A stretch of 64,000 nucleotides of DNA, taken from positions 17,068,957-17,132,956 of the forward strand of contig JAZAYU010000004.1 in NCBI GenBank assembly GCA_038501625.1, read 5' to 3'. This document shows, piece after piece, positions 22,640 through 62,472 of this stretch. The DNA comes from Corbicula japonica (Eukaryota; Mollusca; Bivalvia; Venerida; Cyrenidae). The position numbers were made by a program, and so were the translations under genes. Position 1 is the stretch's first letter. Each line of letters starts with the position of its first letter. Under the pieces are notes generated by a model. It was not told where the DNA came from and did no database searches. It worked only from the letters and a program-made list of their open reading frames with translations.

Positions 22640-23089
22640 TCATGAGTCCTGTTGTCCTCCAAAGAAAATGATGATGATTCCCACAACATTTATAAGAAGA
22701 TATGAGATGAAGAACAGCCGATCTGTTACACAGCAAATCACTTTCCATTCCCGCAAACACTTCTCTTTGATTTCAGCCTTTGCTTTTTTATCTCTGAACT
22801 TCTCGAGGATTTCACGGATGACACGTAGGTCATCAACAAAGGATTTATCCGGATACATGCTTCCTTGCAGATTTCCGTGCGACACGTTGTTTTGCTCCAG
22901 TCCGCTGGTACAGTTAAAGTTTATGTTGTTACTGACGGTGGCGCCGTTATCAATGAGGCGAACCTTAGCAAGCCGGGCCTCGGCGTCCTCATACTCGTTA
23001 CGTTTGTAATTCTGCATGTCCTTCTTGTAGTCTGGTTCCAGGAGCTGGCCACGAAGGCAGAGCACCGTGGCTATAATGTCAATCATTAA
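22640..23089 (-). CDS. nAChR subunit, terminal exon: cytoplasmic loop and TM4
   Basis: An acceptor (TTTTCTAG, ending at 23090) precedes a 149-codon open frame ending in TGA. It starts with the post-TM3 amphipathic stretch ('LMIDIIATVLCLRG'), then a charged loop of about 90 residues, then the pre-TM4 helix ('REILEKFRDKKAKAEIKEKC') and 'EWKVICCVTDRLFFISYLL' leading into TM4 (INVVGIIIIFF) and a six-residue tail. The order and the 'EWK..C.VTDRLFF' motif are characteristic of nAChR C-termini. The intracellular loop is short for the family. The frame follows the TM3 exon in phase 0, continuing '...APAWLRT'. The opposite-strand frames here are shadows. Confidence 0.93.
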   Translation of the reverse strand, partial: LMIDIIATVLCLRGQLLEPDYKKDMQNYKRNEYEDAEARLAKVRLIDNGATVSNNINFNCTSGLEQNNVSHGNLQGSMYPDKSFVDDLRVIREILEKFRDKKAKAEIKEKCLREWKVICCVTDRLFFISYLLINVVGIIIIFFGGQQDS

Positions 23090-26910: not shown

Positions 26911-27029
26911 CGTTCTAAGCCAGGCCGGTGCGCGGTTGATACGGACTCCCCTGAAGAACATGTTGGCCACCACAGTTGACAACACAGTAGACATTGTAAT
27001 CATCACCATCGACAGGCAAAAGTACTTCC
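26911..27029 (-). CDS. nAChR subunit, TM3 exon
   Basis: A 119-bp exon with acceptor 'TTTAAG' and donor G|GTAAATAT. It completes a split Gly codon and then reads 'KYFCLSMVMITMSTVLSTVV' and 'ANMFFRGVRINRAPAWLRT'. This is TM3 followed by the conserved basic 'RG.R.NRAP.WLR' turn of nAChRs. The entry phase (1) matches the TM2 exon and the exit phase (0) matches the terminal exon. Only one copy is present in the window. Confidence 0.92.
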
Positions 27030-28955: not shown

Positions 28956-29042
28956 CTATCAGTGGGATTGACTCTGCTGCTTTAGGTGTAGACTCGGACA
29001 ATAAAAGTAACAAGACAAAGAAAGCCACGAACACGTTCATTC
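28956..29042 (-). CDS. nAChR subunit, TM2 (pore) exon
   Basis: An 87-bp exon with acceptor 'TGTTTTCAG' and donor G|GTCAGT. After the split Gly it reads 'MNVFVAFFVLLLLLSESTPK' and 'AAESIPLIG'. With the cassette end 'P-A-K-L-x-L-G' this makes a complete TM2 and TM2-TM3 link. The sequence resembles the TM2 of molluscan anionic nAChRs, where Pro-Ala replaces the Glu of cation channels at -2'/-1'. Position 9' aligns with Val rather than the usual Leu. Phase is 1 at both ends. It is a single copy, so all three cassettes must join here. Confidence 0.93.
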
Positions 29043-29087
29043 CTGAAAACATTCAACAATTCAAGAGCATTTTCATGAAGTTGACCT

Positions 29088-29236
29088 GTGCCCAAGGTTA
29101 TAAAACTGAGCATGGAAACCAGTCTCAAATCTGAAGCATCTGATTGGCTGAAATGGCGACTGGTCGCCATTTCAGCCAATCAGATGCTTGAGATTTGAGA
29201 CTGGTTTCCAATCTCAGCTTTATAACCTTCAGCCCT
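29088..29236. mobile_element. Foldback MITE, copy 4, next to the TM2 exon
   Basis: About 149 bp, well preserved, with left end GTGCCCAAGGTTATAAAACT and right end 'CTTTATAACCTTCAGCCCTG'. It begins only about 45 nt upstream (transcript sense) of the TM2 exon acceptor, so its hairpin would sit where a branch point is expected. Confidence 0.92.
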
Positions 29237-30019
29237 GTTATCAAAAGTTTAGTTAAACAGTACTAACATAATGTTTTGATAAACTCTGTAAATGAATAGG
29301 TTAAAAATTATTGAAAACTTTTAATAATATTTCTATTTTAAAGACAGTTTTAAATATTTCAATTTTCAATATTTTAGCATATAGCATTTATATGACATTA
29401 CGGTTGTGTATTAAAAAGCTCTACATAATTTACCTAAGCGAAGGCTAAAACAAACCTATATATGAGTTTGAAATGAATATAAACATGCAACATCAAAGTG
29501 AAATCGTTCTAGTAGAGTTTTTTCCTCATATCCATACTAGCAATACATGCTGTAAATGTATGCAAAATAATAAGGTCAGAATATCGCATAACACACTACA
29601 CAGAGCACTTGCGCGTGTATTCACTAAGTTAGAAAACATACAGAATCTTCCGTGAGAGTAGCTTAATATCAAAACCAAAAACTAAAACGGATATCTTAAA
29701 TGGAACACTATTGTTGCATTCCCATGTGTTTTTACAACTGTACTAAGCCACATCACAGAACTTTAAATTTTAGCATTGTGAAAATCCAATGGAATGATTC
29801 AAGTATTTATTTTATTCTTTTATATTTATCTTTATTCAACCAAGAAAGCAATTAATATAAAGAACGCAAAATGTTGTTAACATGAACTATTATATAGTTG
29901 CGCTAAAACTTTATAAGCATTCAACAGATTTTTTGTTTTTGAGAATTTTAAAAAAATCTCAGAAACTTAAAGCAGAAAAAGAGTATGTTAAGGTGCAAGG
30001 AAATCTGTATATGGCGTCT
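29237..30019 (-). other. nAChR intron sequence, unannotated
   Basis: AT-rich. A 60-codon frame at 29473-29655 (+) is not recognised. Confidence 0.4.
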
Positions 30020-33380: not shown

Positions 33381-33838
33381 CAAGGCTGAGTTTTGCCGGG
33401 GCTTCGGGCGGCACCCAGAATATCACATGGGTCAAGCACGTTAGAAGTGCACAAGGCAAAATTAAGATAAAAGTATAGAAGGCCACTTTCCGTTTTAAAC
33501 TTATATGAAATTTCAAATCTAAGTAAGGCACATTCTTGCAGCATTCGTATAACTTGACATTTCTTTCCCCGGTGTTGCTCATAACATCCCATTCGTTGCT
33601 AGGAATAAAGTCATCAACCATGAATCGTGTAATATTTTGGAAGAACTGAAGATCGAGGTAGTTCCCATCGTGAGTCCACGATCCAAACTGAAGGTAGCAC
33701 GATTGGGTATCAAAGGGGAAGAACCGAGTTTCCAGCTGACACGAGCTTCGAAGTATCGCTTGTGGCATCCAGATTATGTCCCCTAAGTAGTTGACAACGA
33801 CCAAGGCTCGGCGTTGCTCCTGGAGTCGGTCGTCTGCG
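33381..33838 (-). CDS. nAChR subunit, alternative cassette exon C (loops E-B-F-C, Cys-loop, TM1; 2' Ser)
   Basis: A 458-bp exon with acceptor 'TGCTCTTTAG' and donor G|GTAAGTAG, frame fully open. Reads from 'ADDRLQEQRRALVVVNYLGD' through loop E, the Cys-loop (C, 13 residues with FPFD, C), loop B 'GSWTHDGNYLDLQF', loop F 'VDDFIPSNEWD', and loop C 'LYECCKNVPYLDLKF' with the vicinal Cys pair and the following Tyr of alpha-type subunits. TM1 follows, then 'WVPPEAPAKLSLG'. One N-glycosylation sequon (NIT) is absent from the other cassettes. It is the most diverged of the three and the nearest to the TM2 exon. TM1 has a His (LTHVIF) where the others have Leu. Confidence 0.93.
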
Positions 33839-34163
33839 CTAAAGAGCATGCATAACAAACATTTAGCGATCTGGCTTGCATGAATTTAATACACAGCGAA
33901 CGGCAACGTTCAAGACGAAACACAACACATTTTGTGTATTCGTTTTCGTCAGGTTAGTCGAATTTAATTAGTTACATCATCAAAAGTCTTATTATGAAAT
34001 ATCTATGACACATTTGTCTTGAAAGTTGCTAATGAAATAATTGGATACAAATCAGCTATACACTAAGTGACAGCAACAAACAGAAGAACACACGTGTTTA
34101 CAGAGAAATACATGGAACACAGGCATTACAGATTGAGCGCAATGTAACTACCACAAACTGAAC

Positions 34164-34267
34164 AAGCTAAATATACCCGTATGTATTCAAGCTAAATATA
34201 TCCCGTATGTATTCAAGCTAAATATATCCCGTATGTATTCAAGCTAAATATATCCCGTATGTATTCA
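34164..34267. repeat. 26-bp minisatellite, four copies
   Basis: Four near-identical units of AAGCTAAATATATCCCGTAT plus GTATTC; the first lacks one T. Confidence 0.95.
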
Positions 34268-34929
34268 ACTTCTCATATTTGTAGCATGTTACATATTTTC
34301 TCACAGTTTACACTGTCGGGGGCCCCACATGTCAACACGGCTCACACATCCACCGGCGTTCACCATTGTATCTCTATCTAGTGCCTTGAACAATGTCGTT
34401 TCCTGGCGGTAACATTCTCCACTCTTTCATTGATATAAAGTATCTCCTCATATGCATCAATTTCAATTGAGTATTTCAAAGCATCCATCAAATATTTTCC
34501 GAACTAAGTGTCGATATGTATGCAGGCCAGTTATTATGACTGTGACTGTGTCGGTGAAAAAAAAAGGTTTCGGATTGAATTATCACATTAAGCTCATATT
34601 GTGAGTATTATAAGTGTTTCTAGTGTTAATTTATAGTTAAAAAGTGTGTATCTTAAATAAAAATAATATTATACTTAATACTAAAATAATATAGATTAAA
34701 GACCCGTGCGGTAGTTTCCGATTTACGAGTTTTACATTCTGCCGTCTACGATGGCAAACAAAACCAGCCGCTGAGTTGAGTCCCACACAGTTGATTCATA
34801 AGTAATATTTTACCAAGAATACCTCTTTATTTGCCAATTTATTACAAAATTCCGATTTAAATCAGACACATAAGCCTAAACAATACGGAAATTATGCTAA
34901 TGCTGCGCACCAAAAATTCTCAAAGTCCT

Positions 34930-35070
34930 GTGCCAAAGGTTATAAAATTGAGCATGGAAACCAGTCTTAAATCTCAAGCATCTGATTGGCTGAAATGGCG
35001 ACAAGTCACCATTTCAGCCAATCAGAGATTTGAGACTGCTTTCCAAACTCAGATTTATAACCTTGGGAGC
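34930..35070. mobile_element. Foldback MITE, copy 5
   Basis: The same family: GTGCCAAAGGTTATAAAATT at the left and 'GATTTATAACCTTGGG' at the right, with a small deletion in the right arm. It lies in the intron between cassettes B and C. Confidence 0.9.
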
Positions 35071-35377
35071 TGAAATTGGAAGCTACCGCAATCTTCTTTA
35101 AAAGTTAAATACTGTATCCCTTAAGACGCGACATTAAAACTGTTGCTAAACCATGCACTACACTTCAAGAAAAAGATTTTGAAGATTCCAAGCAAGAACC
35201 ATAAAGTTTCCAACTACAAGTACAAACAGACCAAAAACATCTTCTAAAACACTAACTACAAAATAAAAAGAAGTACAGAAAATACTTTAAGTAAAGTATC
35301 TGAACAGCAAGTATATTCTTACAAGAATACGCTACGACTTACATTCGTTAATCTTGATTTACGTTCGCACAACTTAC

Positions 35378-35835
35378 CCAGTTGTAATTTTGCTGGTGAC
35401 TCTGGTGGAACCCAAAATATCACCAGAGTTAAGCAGGCCAAGAGGGCACATGGAAGCAGCAAAATAAAACCATAAAATGCAGTTTTTCTCCTCAATCGTA
35501 TCCAGAATTTCAAGTCTAGATAAGGCACGCCCGCGCAACATTCATAAAACTTTATATTCCTTTGTCCCCAGTTTCGTTCTAGCTCCCATTCGTTACTCTT
35601 TATGAAGTCTTCTACCATGAACTGTTCTACCCCATTGAAGAACTTAAGATCCATTTGGTTACCATCATGAGTCCAAGAACCGAATTTGAGATTGCATTCT
35701 GTCTCATCAAACGGGAAATATCTAGTATTTATGGCACAAGTGCTTCTCAATATGGCTTGTGGCATCCATAAAATTAATCCATCGCTAAAAACGTTAACCA
35801 ATGCCGGTCTTTGTTCAGTCAAACGTGAATCAGCA
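35378..35835 (-). CDS. nAChR subunit, alternative cassette exon B (2' Gln)
   Basis: A 458-bp exon with acceptor 'TTGCGTTTTAG' and donor G|GTAAGTT, no stops. Starts 'ADSRLTEQRPALVNVFSDGL'. It has the Cys-loop (FPFDETEC), loop B 'GSWTHDGNQMDLKF', loop F 'VEDFIKSNEWE', loop C 'FYECCAGVPYLDLKF' and TM1 ('FILLLPCALLACLTLVIF'), and ends 'WVPPESPAKLQLG'. It aligns with cassettes A and C over all 152 codons without a gap. Differences concentrate in loop E, the loop F surroundings and the residue after the vicinal Cys pair (Ala here, Lys in A and C), all positions that could affect ligand response. Splice phases are the same as A and C. I find no sign of decay. Confidence 0.94.
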
Positions 35836-36354
35836 CTAAAACGCAAAAAAGAAAAAGACAGCTTTTAAGCGTGACGTGATTGCAATTGTGGGAACACTGG
35901 TGAGCATCTAGGAAATATTTCACCAAGAGAAAATGTCCCGTTCTTGTCTATACGCTCCAGTTGACAATTTTGCAGAATGTTTCGTTGAACTTGTTGAGCA
36001 GTATTCATATAACAACGTGTTGACCGCAGAAGAGTTTAACACACACAGTGTTCAATAATAATATAAAATATTAGAATATATGTGTTTAAATATTATTAAT
36101 TTTAGCTGAAAATAAATTGACTGTATATACATCACTGCAATTTGAGGTTTTTCTCTCCCTTTGGTGTTCAAGAAATTCATCTACAGCGTGAATAACAACA
36201 TCATGCAAATGGCAACATCTCAATGATAGAATAATCCCTACATAAAGTTACATGTAAAACAAAACATGCCTAGAATGCAACAGATAGAAAGAAGATATGG
36301 TTTCTATCAAAAATGAAAAGAAATAGATTTCAGAGAAATGTGCACGAGTCTCAC
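35836..36354 (-). other. Intron between cassettes A and B
   Basis: 519 bp without coding sequence. It is too long for steric exclusion of splicing between A and B, so exclusivity would need another mechanism. Confidence 0.85.
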
Positions 36355-36812
36355 CAAGCATGAGTTTAGCAGGGGCCTCCGGCGGTACCCAGAAGATCAC
36401 CAGGGTTAGACAAGATAGCAGAGTGCATGGAAGAAGCAAAATAAAGCTGTAAAATGCTGTCTTCCGTTTCAGTAAAATATAGAACTTAAGATCCAAATAG
36501 GGCGTGTTCTTGCAACACTCGTAAAATTTTACATTCCTTTCACCACGATTACCAACAAGGTCCCATTCATTACCAGGGATAAAGTCTTCGATAAGAAATT
36601 TCTCTTTGCCATCAAAGAATCTTAAATCCAGCTGATTCCCATCATGAGTCCATGACCCAAATTTGAGGTGACACTCATTTTCGTCAAACGGAAAAAATGT
36701 TGTCTTGAATTCGCATGTGCTGCGGAGGATTGCTTGTGGAACCCACAGAATGCTGCCGTCATAAAATACGTTGACGAGAGCACGACGCTGTTCATGCAGT
36801 CTCGAATCGGCG
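36355..36812 (-). CDS. nAChR subunit, alternative cassette exon A (2' Met)
   Basis: A 458-bp exon with acceptor 'ACCTCTTTAG' and donor G|GTGAGA, no stops. Starts 'ADSRLHEQRRALVNVFYDGS'. It carries the Cys-loop ('FFPFDENEC'), loop B 'GSWTHDGNQLDLRF', loop F 'IEDFIPGNEWD', loop C 'FYECCKNTPYLDLKF' and TM1, and ends 'WVPPEAPAKLMLG'. The acceptor base completes 'YNF' from the upstream exon, giving 'LYNFADSRL', the expected loop A to loop E link. It is the cassette nearest the loop D/A exon. It is closer to B than to C by eye. A frame running past the donor exists but is intronic. Confidence 0.94.
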
Positions 36813-37520: not shown

Positions 37521-37821
37521 GTGTTTCCACTGGAAATTCAGCATATTTAAATTTTGGATAATTCTTATTCAACTTTTCAGATCGACTTGAAAAATCCCAT
37601 ACTACATGTACTCGTAATCCAGAAGTCAACCCACCTCGGACGGTACCAGTGATTGTTGCACGAGAAGCTCCGAAACTTCTCGTGAAACCTTTGATCGGAT
37701 TGTGTTTTGTTAATATCCCAGACAATTGCCATGCTTTACGTCTAACGAGCAAACGTTTTGGTTTATTGCATTTACATGAATTACATTTAATGCATGAATT
37801 ATACCAAACATAATTTTCTTA
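37459..37821 (-). CDS. Unrecognised ORF or ORF remnant inside an nAChR intron
   Basis: An open frame of about 120 codons between stops, without a convincing ATG at its start. It begins with a Cys-rich basic patch ('NSCIKCNSCKCNKPKR'), then 'GFTRSFGASRATITGTVRGG' and 'LTSGLRVHVVWDFSSRSEKL', and ends 'LLGKVLPFRNFAVIDKKEKN'. The composition looks like real protein, but I do not recognise it. It lies in the intron after the loop D/A exon in the gene's own orientation, and its phase is not that of an nAChR exon. The 3' end overlaps a repeat found at 7479-7650, beside the transposon pseudogene, where the opposite strand reads similarly ('RYCAFRHCFAINKKE'). A mobile-element remnant is the likeliest explanation. 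Confidence 0.35.
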
Positions 37822-37846: not shown

Positions 37847-37956
37847 AAGTTGTATAACACAATGTCCGGGATCCAAACTTTTTCGGGTGGTACCATAATT
37901 TTTTGTAGACCGTCATATTTATCTGGGTCCCATTTCAGCAACGCGTCCTTCCATTG
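37847..37956 (-). CDS. nAChR subunit, loop D/loop A exon
   Basis: A 110-bp exon with acceptor 'TATTGCATAG' and donor TT|GTAAGT. Reads '[16 protein letters not shown]', then '[20 protein letters not shown]'. The first Trp completes loop D (the upstream exon ends 'NVWYTY', giving 'NVW-YTYQW'), and 'WIPDIVLYN' contains the loop A Tyr. It ends in phase 2 with TT; the first base of any of the three cassettes makes TTC or TTT (Phe). A single copy in the window, it is the shared donor for all cassettes. Confidence 0.94.
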
Positions 37957-38485
37957 CTATGCAATAATCAGTAGCAGAAAAAAAGTTACAATTTCAGGTC
38001 TGAATTTCGCAATCGTTTAGCATGCAGACAGACTTACGAGTTAGACGTGACATCTCCATAAGTCAATGTATGTTATTGTCGTGACACTTTAACATGAATT
38101 AATGATTCGCTATTGTTCGAAAAAAAAAGTTTGCAGTTTTCGAGAATGAAATGATATTATACCTCTGATGTTTCTTTTTATGTTGTGATGACAGAACATT
38201 TGTTACTCATATCTTTGTTTTCGTATGTTTAAAGATGTACAATACCTTGATCATCTTAATTTGTGCAAGAGAAGTCTAAGTGGATTACTAAATAAACCCA
38301 ATATCTAATGGAACGAGACTTTAATCAAATAGGAAAACTGTGTAGATCCAGATAAGCATGCACACCCGTGTATTATAATCAGGATCTACACTGCTTCTCG
38401 TCCGGAAATAACCAAATGAATATATCAGCAAACAGTCTATATCTAAATCATACTGCATGGATATGCCGGCTGATCTTGTTCTACA

Positions 38486-38627
38486 CAGGGTTGAAGGTTA
38501 TAGAGCTGAGTTTGGAAACCAGTCTCAAATCTCAAGCATCTGATTGGCTGAAATGGCGACTGGTCAGTAATCAGATGCTTGAGATTTGAGACTGGTTTCC
38601 ATGCTCAGCTTTAAAACCTTGGGCACT
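38486..38627. mobile_element. Foldback MITE, copy 6, with central deletion
   Basis: Left 'CAGGGTTGAAGGTTATAGAG' and right 'CTTTAAAACCTTGGGCACTG'. The right arm lacks the 'CGCCATTTCAGCCA' part of the centre. Confidence 0.9.
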
Positions 38628-39479
38628 GGTCGCAAATGAGATAAAAGGCATATCCTAGCAGCAGTAAAGGTATTGTGTAAGACTAATCTAAATTTGAAGG
38701 TTTTTTCTCTTTTCTTCCGATATACTGTGTTATCTCTTCGAGTTGTCTGCAGATTAATTCATAGATTGTTTTAAATGTCATGTTGACTTTGATAAAATAT
38801 TAAATGGAATGTTTTCTATTCACTAAAAGAACTACCGTAGTTCGTCTTCGATATGTTCATTAATAGGAACACAGCACAGGCAGCGTCATGAATATCAGAT
38901 ATATAATAAAAGATGCAGATTATATAAACAATCAATTTCCCAGAGATGCTGGAATCAATTTACATAGTAATACTGTAATCAGCTTGTTTGTAATTTTACT
39001 GTGAGATTTCGTGATTAAATAGTAAATGTGGTTATGTTTTGTTATTTGCGTAACGAAACCACGCAATGTCTTAGCTTCGAAAGAATACACACTTAACTAC
39101 AAACATGTTCAATGTTTTTGAAAAGATGTGAACAATCAAAAAGTGGAAATAAATCGAGTGGAGATTTAAAATCAAATTTTGCCAGTGGTACATTAAAGAG
39201 CAATGGCAAAATATATTCACTAATAGATACTAATGAAAGTATGTTGGCAAATAAGTCTATCTTTAAATCCTTCAATTGTATTTGTGACGTTCATTTTACA
39301 AATTTTACAAATAAAAGATCCCCCTCCTTCAAATCTCGTCATGACTGCCAAAAGAAAACACGACGGTTTACCAGGCATGTTTCATAAAAAATAAAATGTT
39401 GTCCCGACGGAATTTTTAGTGTAATATAAGATCATGTTCAGTTTAACAAGGCCATATGATTACACACTTCTAATTTAAG
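38628..39479. other. Intron sequence, unannotated
   Basis: A 91-codon plus-strand frame at 39112-39387 is not recognised and runs opposite to the host gene. Confidence 0.35.
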
Positions 39480-62245: not shown

Positions 62246-62472
62246 GTATGTGTACCAGACGTTTGTTTCGAGAACCTGATTTTTCTCATCTACGTCCATG
62301 ATTTGTATAAGACTCAGTCCAAACTCAACCGTAATCATGTCGGACGTGTTAGTCACTGGGCGGCCAACTGTGGTATAGTTACTATAACGTTGTAACAGAC
62401 ATTTTATGAGAGCTTTTTCCTTTGAGACCGATTCGTACATTGACCAATCGATAGGACAGTCCTCGTCGAGAC
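62246..62472 (-). CDS. nAChR subunit, N-terminal ligand-binding-domain exon
   Basis: A 227-bp exon with acceptor 'TTTACTTGTAG' and donor TAC|GTAAGTATG. After two bases of a split codon it reads '[20 protein letters not shown]', '[19 protein letters not shown]', then '[20 protein letters not shown]' and '[13 protein letters not shown]'. The RPV...V.FGLSL.QI.DVDEKNQ.L.TNVW pattern is the canonical first half of the nAChR extracellular domain. It has two sequons (NYT, NTS) and two extra Cys outside the Cys-loop (DEDC, IKCLL) that might pair. The exit phase of 0 joins 'QWKD' in the next exon. Entry in phase 1 shows at least one earlier exon, with the signal peptide, beyond the window or unrecognised. 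Confidence 0.94.

Follow-up and report, generated by a model that had tools for sequence, protein, structure and literature searches.

The alpha6 subunit gene of the insect nicotinic acetylcholine receptor (nAChR), also written Dalpha6, contains mutually exclusive exons 3a/3b and 8a/8b/8c, and the authors have dated these exon duplications to before the radiation of the insect orders (PMC1919356, PMC6393475). Exon 3 carries loop D, is 45 bp long and stays in frame if skipped (PMC5111602); exon 8 encodes part of the second transmembrane segment (TM2). The present study deals with a single nAChR subunit gene of the clam Corbicula japonica, examined in a 64-kb stretch (C4:17068957-17132956, hereafter the window) of the 1.07-Gb assembly. 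The gene is very probably one bivalve nAChR gene of the alpha type with three tandem exons (cassettes C1, C2 and C3), each encoding loops E, B, F and C, the Cys-loop and TM1, and exactly one cassette is predicted per mRNA. It resembles insect alpha6 in being one nAChR gene with tandem duplicated exons, one of which is used (in the clam, predicted to be used) per mRNA, generally with three versions at one position. Unlike in insect alpha6, one 458-bp exon would be exchanged in the clam gene, while all versions would have loops A and D and TM2-TM4 in common; the alternative loop D and TM2 exons characteristic of the alpha6 type are both represented by single copies. Since the swapped segments differ, an independent origin of the clam and insect systems is suggested.

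A bivalve case of alternative use of a tandem duplicated exon is the oyster alternative oxidase gene with its duplicated exon 10 (PMC5589949), which differs from the clam gene in having two copies, in the position of the exon as the last one, in its link to stress and in encoding no receptor. The diversity of bivalve nAChRs, with 99 to 217 genes in five bivalves, has been attributed to retroposition and tandem gene duplication (PMC6896357); in the text of that paper, 'exon' is used three times and 'splic' once. The C. japonica genome also contains a very large set of genes of the same superfamily, but here diversity would come from exon duplication inside one intron-rich gene. A paper on splicing in the Manila clam places exclusive exons among the rarest classes, and the words acetylcholine and nicotinic are absent from it (PMC9803972). 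An earlier reading of the window, made from its letters only (the sequence-only reading), knew of no such arrangement in molluscs. No description of such a cassette arrangement in mollusc nAChR genes was found among the best-matching open-licence PMC papers (in part the best 12-20 of 52-186), subscription journals lying largely outside this scope. This part of the reading is nevertheless one of its weaker ones, as two clam isoforms already exist as NCBI gene models. Among nAChR genes, insect alpha6 is the best-known case of alternative exons; the block exchanged in the clam gene would comprise most of the binding loops together with the Cys-loop and TM1.

Layout of the gene and controls in the same genome

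The gene lies on the minus strand and spans at least positions 62472 to 22640 of the window. The coding exons, in order of transcription, are the following:

62246..62472, minus strand: N-terminal coding exon, 227 bp, single copy; from the beginning of the ligand-binding domain to the loop D region, ending in ...NVWYTY
37847..37956, minus strand: exon e4, 110 bp, single copy, ending in phase 2; loop A region, QWKDALL...WIPDIVLYN; upstream partner for all three cassettes
36355..36812, minus strand: cassette C1, 458 bp; loops E-B-F-C, Cys-loop and TM1; donor GTGAGA
35378..35835, minus strand: cassette C2, 458 bp; loops E-B-F-C, Cys-loop and TM1; donor GTAAGT; longest pyrimidine tract (18/20)
33381..33838, minus strand: cassette C3, 458 bp; loops E-B-F-C, Cys-loop and TM1; donor GTAAGT
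28956..29042, minus strand: TM2 exon (pore helix), 87 bp, single copy; downstream partner common to the cassettes
26911..27029, minus strand: TM3 exon, 119 bp, single copy
22640..23089, minus strand: exon of the TM3-TM4 intracellular loop and TM4, 450 bp including the stop codon, single copy

The coordinates of the three tandem exons for the same receptor segment match those of the sequence-only reading to the base, and its description of each of them as 458 bp long, free of stops, entered in phase 2 and left in phase 1 was borne out: all three are open and flanked by AG/GT, with entry after two nucleotides and exit after one nucleotide of a codon. Each cassette matches Pfam PF02931 above the cut-off (E 3.4e-28 to 5.5e-27) and bears the marks of alpha-type nAChRs, namely the Cys-loop C-x13-C, the loop B Trp and the vicinal Cys pair of loop C. 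With TM1 in the cassettes and the TM2, TM3 and TM4 exons found, the four transmembrane segments are accounted for. The N-terminal exon was added to the structure in the present analysis; it was found by tblastn with two Ruditapes philippinarum proteins, P0001 and P0003 (88% identity), and its boundaries were set from AG/GT and phase. A search of the window and 18 kb upstream for a signal-peptide exon with the initiator Met gave six candidates, none of which contained the expected motif.

A profile hidden Markov model (HMM), built from 50 homologues (471-559 aa), was compared with the 3019 open segments, 15 aa or longer, found in the two strands of the window. Eight matches lie above the inclusion threshold, the three cassettes and one each for the N-terminal exon, e4, TM2, TM3 and MA-TM4, and the ninth-best match has an E-value of only 1.8. 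This agrees with the earlier claims of one upstream partner (37847-37956), of single TM2, TM3 and TM4 exons, and of cassettes free of intervening TM2 or TM3 sequence: no extra TM2, TM3 or TM4 sequence between the cassettes was detected with the profile in the whole window. An array of tandem complete genes was rejected, since no second TM2, TM3 or TM4 exon was detected.

When e4 is joined to any single cassette, the frame beginning with e4 stays open for 407 aa, as far as the stop codon. Joining with zero cassettes, with C1+C2, C2+C3 or C1+C3, or with all three leads to early stops upstream of later exon junctions, so that the predicted breakage of the frame occurs in every such join. The effect is automatic, though: the flanking introns are in phases 2 and 1, and therefore only cassettes with a length of 3n+2 can fit between them. 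The blocking of the frame thus follows from the slot itself and is no separate evidence of selection for exclusivity. The features by which clusters of mutually exclusive exons are recognised (PMC3228551) include neighbours of similar length (within 20 aa), here 458/458/458 bp; compatible splice sites and the same reading frame, found in all three cassettes; and sequence homology, here 68-75% amino-acid identity. A further feature is the presence of a single exon of the cluster per mRNA, which is predicted here and with which the related clam gene models agree. The cassettes differ at 34-38% of bases and 25-32% of residues, 96 of the 152 columns being identical in all three. The differences are mostly at third codon positions (94-106 versus 19-27 at second positions), the counts at codon positions 1/2/3 for the three cassette pairs being 42/19/94, 44/20/106 and 51/27/95. 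The dS values between the cassettes are uninformative because of the saturation of synonymous sites; all cassettes are free of stops, with intact splice sites.

Elsewhere in this genome, one cassette per TM2-TM4 set is the usual form, as judged from two other contigs. The gene on C48 has one cassette, and the boundaries of its e4, cassette and TM2 have the same positions and phases as in the window gene. Contig C9 (5866001-5906000; L009-L012) contains two cassettes 19 kb apart, each with its own TM2, TM3 and TM4 exons. An e4 and an N exon were detected solely for the 5,891-kb copy, which comes first in the direction of transcription. For the 5,872-kb copy, neither exon was recovered with six queries at E-values of 10 or below, and the first assumption of two complete genes was dropped for this reason. 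The second copy is possibly an incomplete gene; otherwise, one front half could be alternatively joined to an entire back half. C48 is the clean control, and the exon census of the window is independent of C9.

In a genome search with 117 matches, for which 150 of 195 candidates were scored, the next-best match to C1 is 51% identical. In the same set, the closest other same-strand pair that matches one and the same query segment, chosen by eye, consists of C8:7326646 and C8:7329824. These two are separated by 2.8 kb and have open frames of 461 and 273 aa, whereas the cassette frames of the window are short. The genome contains at least 151 exon-level PF02931 matches. At seven of the eight loci L001-L008 (contigs C112, C64, C4 and C2), four of them on C112, intronless nAChR-like frames are open over 429-462 aa, a type of gene also described in other bivalves; the exception is L006 with 253 aa and a stop.

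Cassette classes in other bivalves

The five best protein matches belong to the bivalves Ruditapes (two), Mactra, Mya and Sinanodonta. The R. philippinarum proteins P0001 ('alpha-10-like isoform X3') and P0003 ('alpha-2-like isoform X1'), encoded on contigs of the same size, differ at 51 of 503 positions, all of them inside the cassette; the X3 cassette is nearest to C2 (81%) and the X1 cassette to C3 (82%). We take the 'isoform X' naming to be of RefSeq style. These models correspond to the window in representing an orthologous gene with cassette-only differences; unlike in the window, their C1-type counterpart is absent among the proteins retrieved. The suggestion of the sequence-only reading, one gene with three alternative cassettes, is supported by the exon census of the window, by the R. 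philippinarum models differing solely in the cassette and by class orthologues in other bivalve samples.

A query with C1 only returned 83 proteins, many of which are single exons read through into introns and hence represent genomic DNA. A tree of 44 cassettes was composed of the three window cassettes and 41 retrieved proteins (12 of the 120 listed for the first search and 29 of 83 from the C1 search; P0066, present in both sets, was counted once, under the C1 search). From the C1 search, P0147 (almost identical to P0148), the short P0195 (comparable to P0155), P0162-P0165 and the majority of the lower matches were omitted. The tree contains a C1-type class of 11 rows with Dreissena (support 93/77), a C2-type class of 11 rows with Ruditapes X3, Mactra and Mya (96/80) and a C3-type class of eight rows with Ruditapes X1 (100/96). 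Four more rows form a fourth group (100/99), which is attached to the C1+C2 side. P0155 is placed next to the C3-type class (94/85), and Sinanodonta next to C1+C2 (90/79); this last placement hints that the first duplication may be older than the split from the freshwater mussels. The rows for oyster, scallop, mussel, pearl oyster, Solemya, snail and octopus that were included lie outside the three classes.

The approximately unbiased (AU) tests, run after the tree had been seen, reject the window's three cassettes as one clade (p 0.0001), by which a recent local duplication of the cassettes was ruled out, as well as a clade of the two Ruditapes cassettes (p 0.0002) and a grouping of window C1 and P0066 with window C2 (p 0.0016). 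Contigs of equal size hold different classes, namely C2-type P0144 and C3-type P0196 (5,414 bp) and C1-type P0152 and C3-type P0160 (5,738,529 bp), and the paired sizes suggest that two further samples may carry tandem cassettes. The relatives of each cassette version in other bivalves indicate that the switch is probably ancient.

Several of the retrieved proteins have features of their own. P0142 (Dreissena polymorpha DPMN_093317) is a C1-type cassette annotated as a separate 163-aa protein, most likely a fragment of a gene model from the same kind of locus. P0146, P0150, P0153, P0159 and P0155 are cassette exons from other samples, on the C1/C2 side (QLGE) and the C3 side (VLGE), possibly from a lineage whose two cassettes both have GTGAR donors. 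P0056 (Elysia) was considered as a protein with two joined cassettes and left unused; its repeat spans the loop F-loop C part alone and reads as a model error.

Splice signals and class-specific residues

The donor was read directly in the window and, elsewhere, deduced from the residue read through into the intron. This residue is Glu, which implies GTGAR, in 11 of 11 C1-type rows, and Lys, which implies GTAAR, in 8/8 C2-type and 7/7 C3-type read-through rows; two changes on the tree suffice to explain the donor residue over 31 scored rows, including five outlying Glu rows. The donor scores, computed with textbook donor weights, are 3.1 for C1 and 5.3 and 5.5 for C2 and C3, the constitutive donors of the gene scoring 2.7-3.4. 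The 20 nt before the acceptor contain 18 pyrimidines in C2, 13 in C1 and 14 in C3, and 12-14 in the constitutive exons. C2 is the best-equipped cassette and C1 the least, though C1 is not unusually weak.

Two familiar routes to exclusivity were discarded. Steric hindrance does not fit the introns between the cassettes, which are too long (519 and 1539 bp), and a dual-spliceosome (U2/U12) arrangement does not fit the four cassette-side donors GTAAGT, GTGAGA, GTAAGT and GTAAGT, all U2-like by what we take to be the U12 consensus. As to other intron features, a near-perfect small hairpin at 37655-37688, in the e4-C1 intron, scored above all 100 shuffles, and a 26-bp tandem repeat lies at 34176-34268, in the C2-C3 intron. 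Copies of a palindromic foldback element, with arms of up to 67 nt and 94% complementary, are located in the introns around the cassettes (29083-29245, 34927-35080 and 38485-38636), one of them about 40 bp from the TM2 acceptor. The foldback repeats were rejected as a looping device and treated as ordinary insertions, since the element is a genome-wide repeat, with at least 40 scored copies at 96-100% identity and 2518 first-look candidates; this level of identity suggests that the element has been recently active.

The analysis of class residues was made with 27 class rows, P0066 (97% like C1), P0193 and P0196 being also omitted. All rows that cover these positions have the Trp of loop B, the Tyr of loop C, the vicinal Cys pair and the cysteines of the Cys-loop, and the second loop C aromatic residue is Tyr or Phe. 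A position was considered class-specific if at least 80% of the rows within each class had one residue and the classes differed. There are 13 such positions, five in TM1, two in loop E, two in loop F, and one each in the Cys-loop, the loop B segment, the beta-5 loop and the pre-TM1 part. The candidate contact positions among them are position 14 of loop E and positions 73 and 80 of loop F, the loop names and contact roles being our assignment. Position 14 aligns with human alpha7 Leu108, which we take to be a position of the complementary face; it is Val in four of five C3-type rows, but Asn in Ruditapes X1. A focus of the differences on the Cys-loop, seen in a two-species comparison (15 shared cassette-specific residues against one in the swap control, five of them in the Cys-loop), was abandoned, being lost in the wider class set, where one of 14 Cys-loop positions is class-specific (p 0.73, not enriched). 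Thus, of the 'different ligand-binding faces' proposed earlier, a few class-specific candidate contact positions remain, but the core contact residues are conserved. An effect of the cassette on ligand preference is possible; judging by the residues, the three products should all bind acetylcholine and may differ in interface, coupling or membrane helix.

Competing explanations and meaning of the proposed switch

Several points weigh against a single gene with one cassette per mRNA. Exclusive use in C. japonica is predicted from the DNA sequence, and the R. philippinarum isoforms are automatic gene models. The C1-type clade is not starred in the 44-row tree, and no full-length annotated C1-type protein is present among the 214 proteins retrieved; the full-length proteins with PAKLMLG in this set (P0071, P0072 and P0086) are of gastropod origin and only 37-50% identical to the query, and a C1-type clam isoform could be hidden behind P0001 (seven members) by the 90% clustering. 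C9 is an imperfect control, as neither an e4 nor an N exon was detected for one of the two copies. The donor rule is limited to the tree classes, the 214 proteins including, e.g., five QLGE, three VLGE and three MLGK rows. The C1 donor is weaker than those of C2 and C3 yet like constitutive donors, and the C1 and C3 acceptors are also constitutive-like, so splice-site strength alone says little. Competing intron pairings, by which docking-selector exclusivity would be recognised, did not exceed shuffles (22-66 of 100 shuffles reached the observed score for six intron pairs) in a weak test, made with one genome; of the 4338-bp intron downstream of C3, this test covered the initial 1000 bp; the whole-intron duplexes, among those listed, did not beat shuffles either.

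The absence of an exclusivity signal in the introns is among the points that favour alternative but not strictly exclusive use, in which frequent skipping or joining would give truncated regulatory products, similarly to the skipping of exon 3 in insect alpha6; low-level exon skipping is also described as common in insect nAChRs (PMC5111602). We consider this unlikely, although it is the most credible of the rivals: unlike the 45-bp in-frame insect exon 3, every non-single combination of the clam cassettes shifts the frame, and RNAs of this kind would therefore be targeted for decay instead of giving nearly complete receptors. The cassettes might instead be the remains of three genes of a decayed tandem array, one of them used and the others relics. 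Many tandem nAChR genes do occur in bivalves (PMC6896357), and the C9 locus, with two tandem copies of cassette and TM2-TM4, one of them lacking a detectable e4/N exon, can be read in this way. In the window, however, all three cassettes are open over their full length with AG/GT sites and shared phases, the changes fall mostly on third codon positions, remnants of other exons were not detected between the cassettes, and each class persists in other species, which makes decay improbable. Finally, nothing was found in favour of an assembly artefact, i.e., one exon duplicated by mis-joined haplotypes; the base divergence of the cassettes and the independent presence of C2-type and C3-type versions as R. 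philippinarum isoforms leave it practically no credence.

Under the preferred explanation, one gene with one cassette per mRNA, each mRNA would join e4 to one of C1, C2 and C3 and then to the common TM2 exon. In mRNAs with zero or several cassettes, the early stops would lie far upstream of the last junction, and nonsense-mediated decay would eliminate these mRNAs. The choice may be made by cassette-specific splice signals, GTGAR on C1, GTAAR on C2 and C3, and the long pyrimidine tract of C2, which would be recognised by splicing factors specific to tissues or stages. The gene would thus probably give three subunits with the same pore and acetylcholine contacts, differing in subunit interfaces, the coupling of binding to gating and TM1, and these differences might lead to different sensitivity, kinetics or partner choice. 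On balance, we lean towards a three-way splice switch maintained in a large group of bivalves from a time before Ruditapes, Mactra, Mya and Dreissena diverged, which swaps the interface-forming half of the sensor together with TM1 as a block, each block with its own donor, leaves the pore unchanged and gives three receptors tuned for cells, stages or conditions.

If this is true, each isoform would be a natural chimera at the boundary between sensor and pore, offering a ready experiment on the coupling of binding and gating. Automatic annotation can miss such cassettes, as seen from the Dreissena C1-type cassette filed as a 163-aa protein, and counts of receptor genes in bivalves would then undercount receptor types. 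One gene would provide three receptors in animals that already have about a hundred or more receptor genes, which suggests that bivalves, known for receptor diversity by gene copying, would also make diversity inside one gene.

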